Shown here: positions 5,219 through 6,505 of the stretch, piece by piece | Layout of the letters: each line of letters begins with the position of its first letter | How positions within the stretch are numbered: position 1 is the stretch's first letter | Assembly: GCA_022573935.1 (NCBI GenBank) | Contig: JACZTE010000057.1 | Span: 1-6,505, forward strand | Reading direction: 5' to 3' | Source of the DNA: Chloroflexota bacterium | GTDB taxonomy: Bacteria; Chloroflexota; Dehalococcoidia; DSTF01; RBG-16-68-14 | Length of the DNA stretch: 6,505 nt | Translations under genes and position numbers: made by a program | Notes under the pieces: model-generated | What the model was told of the DNA's origin: nothing | The model's input: only the letters and a program-made list of their open reading frames with translations | Databases searched by the model: none

Positions 5219-5286
5219 AGCCTAGTGCAGCAGAATCGGACCGTTCTCCTTGCGCCCGACCCGGTTGCGCCTTGGTACAGCCGGGC

Positions 5287-5670
5287 ATGAGCCGAGGCAG
5301 GCTCCTGCTTACGGCGGTTGCCCTCATCCTCCGCGCCGCCGGCGCCCGGGCCGGGGCCACATCGGCGGGCTACATCCTGTTGCGCCTGCCCCATGAGCTC
5401 AAGGAGCTGTTCTCCCAGTGGCTCGCCACCCATTACCCGGACAAGGCCGACCACGTCCTCAGCCTGGTGCGGCAAAGCCGTGGCGGCCGCCTCAACGATC
5501 CCGCCTTCGGCAGCCGCATGGTGGGAACCGGGAGCTATGCCACCATGCTGGGCCAGCGCTTCAAGGCCGCGTGCCGGCGCCTGGAATTGAACCCGCGCGA
5601 GGGCGGCATGCTCGATACCTCGGGGTTCCGCCCACCGCCCCTGCCCGGCCAACAACTGAAATTGTTTTAG
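5287..5670 (+). CDS. C-terminal fragment of a PA0069-family radical SAM protein with a foreign N-terminus
   Basis: Seen: 127 residues. From about residue 22 onward (GATSAGYILLRLPHELKELF, then ATHYPDKADHVLSLVRQSRGG, GTGSYATMLGQRFKAACRRL, and a tail ending FRPPPLPGQQLKLF) it matches the end of PA0069/Rv2578c-type radical SAM proteins as I know them. Those proteins are about three times longer and carry an N-terminal CxxxCxxC Fe-S/SAM domain. That catalytic domain is absent, and no Cys cluster occurs upstream in any frame. Residues 1-15 (MSRGRLLLTAVALIL) instead look like a signal peptide, and the sequence before 5300 carries a promoter-like element. I read this as a chimeric frame, probably from assembly, and not a working enzyme. 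A TTG at 5272 could extend it by five residues. It lies 45 bp upstream of rnhB in the same direction, an arrangement I recall from Alphaproteobacteria. Confidence 0.75.
   Translation: MSRGRLLLTAVALILRAAGARAGATSAGYILLRLPHELKELFSQWLATHYPDKADHVLSLVRQSRGGRLNDPAFGSRMVGTGSYATMLGQRFKAACRRLELNPREGGMLDTSGFRPPPLPGQQLKLF
5305..5345. other. Probable junction between two unrelated genomes
   Basis: Left of this stretch are a Chloroflexota-like glycosyltransferase operon, a rightward promoter-like element and a signal-peptide-like start. Right of it the reading frame abruptly becomes the C-terminal third of an alphaproteobacterial radical SAM protein, followed by rnhB. The stretch itself is low-complexity GC (CGCGCCGCCGGCGCCCGGG), where short overlaps could be misjoined. 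No IS end, tRNA or target duplication is visible. The exact break cannot be fixed by eye. Confidence 0.5.
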
Positions 5671-5715: not shown

Positions 5716-6342
5716 ATGCCCGACTTCCGACTAGAGCTTGCCCATCCCGGGCTCGTTGCCGGCATCGACGAAGCCGGACGCGGGCCCTGGGCCGGTCCCG
5801 TCATCGCCGCCGCCGTGGTGCTTGACCGTGACCGCTTGCCGATGGGCCTCCTGAATACCATCGACGATTCCAAGGCGCTTTCGCGCGCACGGCGCAAGCA
5901 AATCTACGCCGGCTTGCGGGCGCTCATCGGCAACGGCGTCCATATCGGCATCGGCGGCGCCTCTGCCGCCGAGATCGACCGGGTCAATGTCCTGGAAGCA
6001 ACCATGCTGGCCATGGGCCGGGCGCTCCGGGCGCTCGATGTGTTGCCCGACCTCGCCCTGGTCGACGGCAACCGGGCGCCGAAGCTGCCCTGCGCCGTCA
6101 AGACCGTGGTGGGCGGCGATCGGCTGAGCCTTTCCATCGCCGCCGCCTCCATCGTCGCCAAGGTCACCCGCGACGGCATCATGGCCGAACTGGCCCGGCG
6201 CCATCCCGGCTTCGGCTGGGAACACAATGCCGGCTATGGCACCGCCCGGCACCAAGAGGGCCTCGCCGCCCAGGGACCAACCCGCCATCACCGCCGGTCC
6301 TTTGCCCCGATCCGGCGTCTTTTGGAGCCAGAGTCCCACTAG
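5716..6342 (+). CDS. rnhB: Ribonuclease HII
   Basis: A cytoplasmic endonuclease that cuts the RNA strand of RNA-DNA hybrids. It starts ribonucleotide excision repair by nicking at single ribonucleotides and helps remove primers and R-loops. Seen in 208 residues: GLVAGIDEAGRGPWAGPV (12-29) with catalytic D18 and E19; IDDSKALSRARR (49-60); LALVDGN (113-119) with D117; VVGGDRLSLSIAAASIVAKV (131-150) with D135, completing the DEDD metal site; KVTRD (149-153); and WEHNAGYGTARHQEGL (168-183) followed by HHRRSFAPIR (191-200). All type 2 RNase H motifs are present and the length is normal, so it should be active. ATG 5716 begins shortly before the first strand; no Shine-Dalgarno is visible. It follows the radical SAM fragment by 45 bp and precedes a probable methyltransferase gene. 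Its motifs and style suit Rhodospirillales-like Alphaproteobacteria (inference). Confidence 0.96.
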   Translation: MPDFRLELAHPGLVAGIDEAGRGPWAGPVIAAAVVLDRDRLPMGLLNTIDDSKALSRARRKQIYAGLRALIGNGVHIGIGGASAAEIDRVNVLEATMLAMGRALRALDVLPDLALVDGNRAPKLPCAVKTVVGGDRLSLSIAAASIVAKVTRDGIMAELARRHPGFGWEHNAGYGTARHQEGLAAQGPTRHHRRSFAPIRRLLEPESH

Positions 6343-6344
6343 AC

Positions 6345-6353
6345 TTATCCACA
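6345..6353 (+). promoter_or_regulatory. Consensus DnaA box
   Basis: TTATCCACA is an exact match to the strong DnaA box. It begins two bases after the rnhB stop codon and shares its last two bases with the left arm of the 6352-6406 inverted repeat. A single box does not make an origin: no second box or AT-rich unwinding element is nearby. Control of the downstream gene by DnaA is the more natural inference. Confidence 0.55.
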
Positions 6354-6406
6354 AGATGTTGAGTCCCGCTTAAAGCGGAATCCACGATATAGTGTCTAAC
6401 ATCTTG
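6352..6406. repeat. Perfect 9-bp inverted repeat enclosing a 6-bp-stem hairpin
   Basis: CAAGATGTT (6352-6360) and AACATCTTG (6398-6406) are exact reverse complements, 37 bases apart. Between them CCGCTT-A-AAGCGG (6366-6378) is a second perfect inverted repeat with a one-base centre. The inner stem is flanked on both sides by GANTC sites, and a TATAGT lies between it and the right arm. It may be a dyad operator, a folded leader or the 3' end of the rnhB message. No T-run follows, so an intrinsic terminator is less likely. Confidence 0.65.
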
Positions 6407-6459
6407 ATTCCAAAAATACTTATTGACGGCGAATCCAGTTTGACTCATGGTGCGCCGCC

Positions 6460-6505
6460 ATGTCCAAAATAACCCGCAAACCCGGCGCCGGCATGATCAG
6501 CCCTG
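6460..6505 (+). CDS. Start of a gene, probably a CcrM-type adenine methyltransferase (partial)
   Basis: Seen: ATG 6460 opens a frame reading MSKITRKPGAGMISP to the window edge, a basic start of 15 codons. That is too short to identify from sequence. The inference of CcrM (N6-adenine methylation at GANTC once per cell cycle) rests on position directly after rnhB, the gene order I recall from Alphaproteobacteria, and on the GANTC-rich spacer. A competing ATG at 6447 in another frame gives MVRRHVQNNPQTRRR, which is less likely but not excluded. No clear Shine-Dalgarno precedes either start. Confidence 0.4.
   Translation, partial: MSKITRKPGAGMISP

Follow-up and report, generated by a model that had tools for sequence, protein, structure and literature searches.

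In Caulobacter crescentus, the GANTC sites of the methyltransferase gene ccrM lie in the leader of the gene. The presence of GANTC in a ccrM promoter is already known: two sites are reported for the Caulobacter promoter (PMC10073500), and the gene is described as being expressed from the hemimethylated chromosome (PMC2217572, PMC10073500). The P1 promoter of ctrA has one GANTC at -29/-28 from the transcription start and is active when hemimethylated (PMC4287350). The activity of the ftsZ and mipZ promoters depends on CcrM, and in the case of ftsZ the GANTC is located between -35 and -10 and its methylation raises the activity, which is highest in the fully methylated state (PMC3708114). In the same organism, GcrA prefers methylated GANTC and recruits the polymerase (PMC3667746), and gcrA and ccrM have been described as being either both present or both absent (PMC3885167). 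A supplement to PMC2877005 gives counts of GANTC upstream of cell-cycle genes.

The window analysed here, i. e. the whole stretch of 6,505 nucleotides, contains six GANTC sites in 116 bp (6331-6446, Table 1): the first is found within the last codons of rnhB, and the other five are located in the spacer (6343-6459) that separates rnhB from an open reading frame starting with ATG at 6460. The sequence-only reading had reported these six sites in or next to the spacer and a single site in the preceding ~990 bp, and both statements are correct: the site at 5866 is the only other one past position 5237. The window as a whole is even poor in GANTC, with 18 sites (12 of them before 6331) as compared to 26 expected from shuffled sequences. 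When the window was simulated with Markov models (500 runs per order), six sites per 116 bp came up once at first order and never at second or third order. When the composition was taken from the 116-bp stretch itself, six sites were reached once in 20,000 first-order simulations and never in 20,000 mononucleotide shuffles. It is hardly credible that such a cluster has arisen by chance in an AT-richer spacer or reflects a hairpin or terminator at the 3' end of rnhB: the spacer does harbour a perfect 9-bp inverted repeat, and the RNA fold is slightly better than that of shuffled sequences (z -2.0), but 11 of 200 shuffles are equal, a scan of the window with simple consensus sequences found no terminator-like site (and no promoter), the simulations very rarely reach six sites, and the cluster is conserved in related loci and throughout the class. 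A chance origin was therefore dismissed on the basis of simulation and conservation, and the RNA hairpin as an explanation on the basis of its weak signal.

Table 1. Features around the GANTC cluster in the window (positions refer to the whole window).
Feature	Position	Strand	Basis or remark
rnhB (ribonuclease HII), 208 aa	5716..6342	+	PF01351, E 9e-45
GANTC site 1 (GAGTC)	6331..6335	.	inside rnhB end
Consensus-like DnaA box TTATCCACA	6345..6353	+	minority of relatives
Inverted repeat, left arm (CAAGATGTT), perfect 9 bp	6352..6360	.	
GANTC site 2 (GAGTC)	6361..6365	.	sequence
GANTC site 3 (GAATC)	6378..6382	.	sequence
GANTC site 4 (GATTC), in conserved upstream block TAA-N4-TTGATTC	site 6406-6410, block 6397..6410	+	
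Inverted repeat, right arm (AACATCTTG)	6398..6406	.	
Predicted -35 element TTGACG	6423..6428	+	comparison with relatives
GANTC site 5 (GAATC)	6431..6435	.	offset +8 from TTGAC, between -35 and -10
GANTC site 6 (GACTC)	6442..6446	.	offset +19 from TTGAC
Predicted -10 element CATGGT (CANNNT), 17-bp spacer	6446..6451	+	CANNNT in 67/67 +19 promoters
Probable ccrM, first 15 codons (MSKITRKPGAGMISP)	6460..6505	+	synteny; weak N-terminal resemblance

Searching one genome per species with the RnhB protein gave 80 loci, mostly from uncultured Rhodospirillales and other Alphaproteobacteria. A CcrM-type open reading frame (DPPY with CcrM context) is present at most 700 bp 3' of rnhB and on the same strand in 57 of them; eight loci with ccrM at a distance of 706-2786 bp were left out of this group, and 15 have no ccrM in the locus. 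Representative CcrM proteins score 606-632 bits with NCBIfam NF050803 in four of four cases tested, which is below the cut-off of 830 tuned to Caulobacter, the two proteins tested for domains have both PF01555 (N6_N4_Mtase) and PF18755 (RAMA), and the best solved relative of the representative proteins is CcrMI 6pbd. The expectation of a GANTC methyltransferase downstream of rnhB is thus borne out by the relatives, whereas for the window itself, which ends after 15 codons, the assignment follows from synteny and the promoter and not from the sequence of the gene. The peptide MSKITRKPGAGMISP resembles MSRITKKP, the N-terminus of a DNA methyltransferase encoded in an alphaproteobacterial assembly and the best among the 120 matches listed of 7,958; however, shuffling the peptide gave a score as good in 7 of 300 cases. 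The gene is very probably ccrM.

The open reading frame at 5272-5667 on the plus strand, which we take to be a radical SAM gene (PA0069-like), matches with residues 33-132 only the last part of a protein that has ~360-400 amino acids in several relatives and is often encoded upstream of rnhB. In the window, glycosyltransferase genes on the opposite strand occupy the place of the upstream part, and the gene therefore looks cut, either by a rearrangement or by an assembly join. The genes between 888 and 5147, a GT4-type membrane transferase gene on the plus strand and three glycosyltransferase genes on the minus strand, make up a surface polysaccharide cluster that adjoins rnhB.

The density of GANTC follows ccrM. 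Between rnhB and ccrM, the 57 loci have 181 sites in 9,245 bp (19.6 per kb) as compared to 665 sites in 333,660 bp (2.0 per kb) in the remainder of the same loci; at least three sites are present in 36 of the 57 spacers, and at least four in 116 bp in 28 of them. The 14 loci that lack ccrM (L064, at a contig end, was not counted) have only four sites in 2,380 bp after rnhB (1.7 per kb). Three Defluviicoccus loci (L004, L006 and L024), for which no CcrM match was obtained at E 1e-30, contain two, zero and zero sites after rnhB, respectively. The 461.6 kb outside the ccrM spacers contain only two clusters of at least four sites per 116 bp. One of these (L002:4149) is the putative promoter of a ccrM gene displaced by 2.8 kb from rnhB; in this locus, the cluster is located at ccrM. 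Conservation of the sites in the spacer of relatives had been set as a check beforehand, and the clusters are indeed kept along with ccrM and are absent downstream of rnhB in loci that lack it.

The same picture emerges from 190 genomes sampled evenly across the class, of which 133 have CcrM. Upstream regions were taken from 130 of these (three with partial matches were left out), and 128 were analysed since two were too short. GANTC sites are found at 0.3 per kb between -400 and -350 and at 23 per kb between -100 and -50 bp of the start of the CcrM domain, and the density drops to 1.7 per kb inside the gene. The largest 116-bp cluster comprises at least three sites in 79 of the 128 regions, at least five in 27 and at least six in 11; 15 regions are devoid of GANTC, which counts against generality. 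The impression that the density in the window looks high thus does not set this genome apart: the window represents the upper range of what is common in the class. As judged from the comparison of sequences, the cluster belongs to a widely conserved putative promoter ahead of ccrM, and its telling feature is the fixed placing of three GANTC sites on a -35/-10 core, less so the number of sites.

With all 121 TTGAC motifs in the 128 regions as the anchor, GANTC is found 47 times at offset +19, 26 times at +8 and 22 times at -15, and on average 2.2 times at other offsets between -60 and +60. After removal of 13 redundant regions from a total of 188, 175 regions including the window were available, and 67 of them have a GANTC at +19. 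In each of these 67, a CANNNT hexamer begins at the last base of the +19 site, 17 bp from the -35 element, even though this feature had not been selected for. The middle base of the +19 site is C in 50 cases and A in 17 but never G or T, and most of the 67 promoters have a further inner GANTC at +6 to +10 (55) and an upstream GANTC at -40 to -5 (58). Among the 86 promoters with a GANTC at +8, +10 or +19, A and T are present at the key -10 positions in 79, including 12 of the 19 that lack the +19 site. The first ATG follows the -10 element by 6-10 bases in 52 of the 86, suggesting that the mRNA would be leaderless or nearly so. The resulting grammar is: GANTC, -35 TTGAC, GANTC, GANTC abutting the -10 CANNNT, and ATG beside the predicted start. 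The window has precisely this order: GATTC (6406), TTGACG (6423), GAATC (6431), GACTC (6442), CATGGT (6446) and ATG (6460), with the sites at 6431 and 6442 between the two promoter elements and the last base of the latter serving as the first base of the -10 hexamer. Moreover, its upstream block agrees with the consensus derived from 49 sites positioned at -15 to -17 relative to TTGAC. A generic sigma-70 scan of the window did not call any promoter because CATGGT has only three of the six consensus bases, and the promoter of the window came out from the comparison alone. The grammar has its limits, too: of the class-wide regions (125 after removal of redundancy), 46 show the +19 form, another 29 have a site at +6 to +10 but not the +19 form, and the remaining 50 have neither, which speaks against generality.

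This promoter form is nearly private to ccrM. In the 190 genomes, the strict form TTGAC-N3-GANTC-N6-GANTC has 26 matches, 20 of which are located at most 131 bp upstream of a CcrM match. A control with the second spacer extended by two positions gave six matches, none of them at ccrM, and this equals the six off-target matches of the real form. A reversed pattern had no matches at all; this control is weak because reversed GANTC is CTNAG, which has itself been reported as rare (PMC3973325), and we rely on the shifted spacing instead. In the 26 genomes reached via the loci, 13 of 14 strict matches are found at CcrM genes (one a second CcrM-like gene), and in 30 genomes chosen by pattern, TTGACG-N13-GAMTCA-NNN-T has 30 matches, 27 of them at ccrM. 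Both of these sets were picked partly for the pattern, and the 190 genomes are the unselected sample. The strict matches away from ccrM (L087, L137, L142, L143, L147, L154, L155) showed no common gene. Since the strict pattern is mostly found at ccrM, it does not, by this test, represent a general GcrA-type promoter. In L089 (G020:C78), the second CcrM-like gene is preceded by a strict GANTC promoter of its own; this genome has two GcrA matches on different contigs and may thus be a mixed assembly.

The tight link to ccrM also bears on the idea of an element controlled by replication or DnaA, in which GANTC sites and a DnaA box would form an origin-like structure. The window does contain TTATCCACA at 6345, and the box is enriched 8.5-fold in ccrM upstream regions (TTATNCACA in 13 of 175 regions as compared to 12 occurrences across 479,775 bp from the 80 loci). 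However, 13 of 175 is a small minority, and the cluster tracks ccrM and has a promoter grammar, so that we regard such an element as very improbable. A CtrA-activated ccrM promoter of the Caulobacter type was discarded as well: the CtrA box TTAA-N7-TTAA does not occur in the window, and it is rare, yet denser than background, in the relatives (6 of 175 regions, 60.8 kb, as compared to 10 in 480 kb of loci). The GANTC sites upstream of the core shift in position yet remain numerous, as might be expected if they served as a binding array, with CcrM or another protein acting by occupancy or local hypomethylation rather than by a methyl mark on the core promoter. The core sites, however, are in fixed phase with -35 and -10, and we consider the array improbable as an explanation of the cluster. 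The commonest flank before the upstream sites is TATT or TGTT, and in one relative (L021), ACATGTTGAGTC and its inverse GACTCAACATGT, ~30-70 bases past rnhB, flank an inner GANTC upstream of the core.

What could these sites do? We lean, on balance, towards a methylation-gated, self-limiting ccrM promoter whose core and upstream part are formed by these sites. CcrM probably controls its own production, since the cluster is located in the putative promoter of the very enzyme that methylates such sites. RNA polymerase with the housekeeping sigma factor would use TTGACG and CATGGT and start near 6458, thus giving a leaderless or nearly leaderless mRNA and placing the core GANTC sites at about -52, -27 and -16. 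As CcrM methylates GANTC, its promoter would be marked by its own product: The most probable course is that the promoter is hemimethylated and active once the replication fork has passed, and that CcrM then builds up, remethylates the cluster and shuts its own promoter; the multiplicity of sites would sharpen or delay this shut-off. We infer both the methylation of the sites and the direction of the response. Published precedents back methylation control of such sites but differ in sign, and ftsZ of Caulobacter, in the literature that we found the only tested case of a GANTC between -35 and -10, opposes the self-limiting reading by analogy. The self-limiting form is preferred because it provides a pulse and fits the published accounts of ccrM.

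The main rival is positive autoregulation: methylated GANTC sites would recruit GcrA and the sigma-70 polymerase and switch ccrM on, so that CcrM production would persist in a methylated cell, and the fall after replication would be due to other factors. This agrees with the preference of GcrA for methylated sites and its recruitment of polymerase (PMC3667746), with the maximal activity of fully methylated ftsZ (PMC3708114), and with the proximity of the site at about -27 to the -29 position of ctrA P1 (PMC4287350); moreover, of 26 genomes in which ccrM follows rnhB, 23 contain GcrA. On the other hand, nine genomes with such a promoter gave no match to the Rhodospirillales GcrA profile (E 0.01) and none above the Pfam cut-off, and the sites do not favour YGAKTCK, the extended GcrA motif of Caulobacter cited in PMC7987155. 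This motif fits 13 of 46 sites at +8, 8 of 18 at +10, 17 of 67 at +19 and 7 of 58 at -14 to -17, with about one quarter expected, i. e. near chance except for +10 (above) and -14 to -17 (below), and, by eye, it fits none of the six sites of the window; we therefore gave it up as a signature of the sites. Taken together, positive autoregulation seems possible but rather unlikely. The nine genomes, six of which had been picked for the strict pattern, include four from the order of Oceanibaculum pacificum; their GcrA may have diverged or, in assembled genomes, may fall into a gap. For the self-limiting promoter, GcrA might contribute to reading the marks in most lineages, and the reader in some lineages would be another one, perhaps the polymerase or CcrM itself. 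It is tempting to speculate, although we do so with considerable reserve, that Alphaproteobacteria share a ccrM-private, leaderless three-GANTC promoter which is read by sigma-70 polymerase or CcrM independently of GcrA, as a self-contained feedback on the level of methylation. As a separate observation, GcrA was found in six genomes (G028, G029, G032, G034, G037 and G038; three of them Defluviicoccus) that had no CcrM match at E 1e-30, which runs against the published rule of co-occurrence.

In the literature searched, which covered few subscription papers, we came across no report of a class-wide, phased arrangement of GANTC sites at ccrM, and the setting of the CcrM pulse outside Caulobacter, in bacteria whose ccrM is not wired to CtrA, is little studied there. 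Within the same literature, the phasing of three sites on the core, the almost exclusive association with ccrM, the wide distribution of the promoter and its occurrence in genomes with no detectable GcrA appear to be new. With a grammar nearly private to ccrM, autoregulation by DNA methylation can be approached from the sequence; the grammar also leads one to expect leaderless ccrM mRNAs, and it singles out lineages such as the Oceanibaculum order in which any reading of the marks would have to do without a recognisable GcrA. As in the ccrM promoter of C. crescentus, GANTC sites are located in the putative promoter of the gene for the same methyltransferase; unlike the two sites described there, the window has six, three of them on the -35/-10 core, and no CtrA box. 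The GANTC of ctrA P1 at -29/-28 is close in position to the +8 site of the window at about -27; however, P1 is described as having a single site, belongs to another gene and is repressed by CtrA, whereas here there are three core sites, and nine genomes bearing the promoter have no GcrA that we could find. Finally, the ftsZ and mipZ promoters of Caulobacter (CGACTC) share with the ccrM promoter a conserved GANTC, in the case of ftsZ even between -35 and -10, but these division genes are reported to have one conserved site each, whereas the promoter of ccrM carries a phased set.
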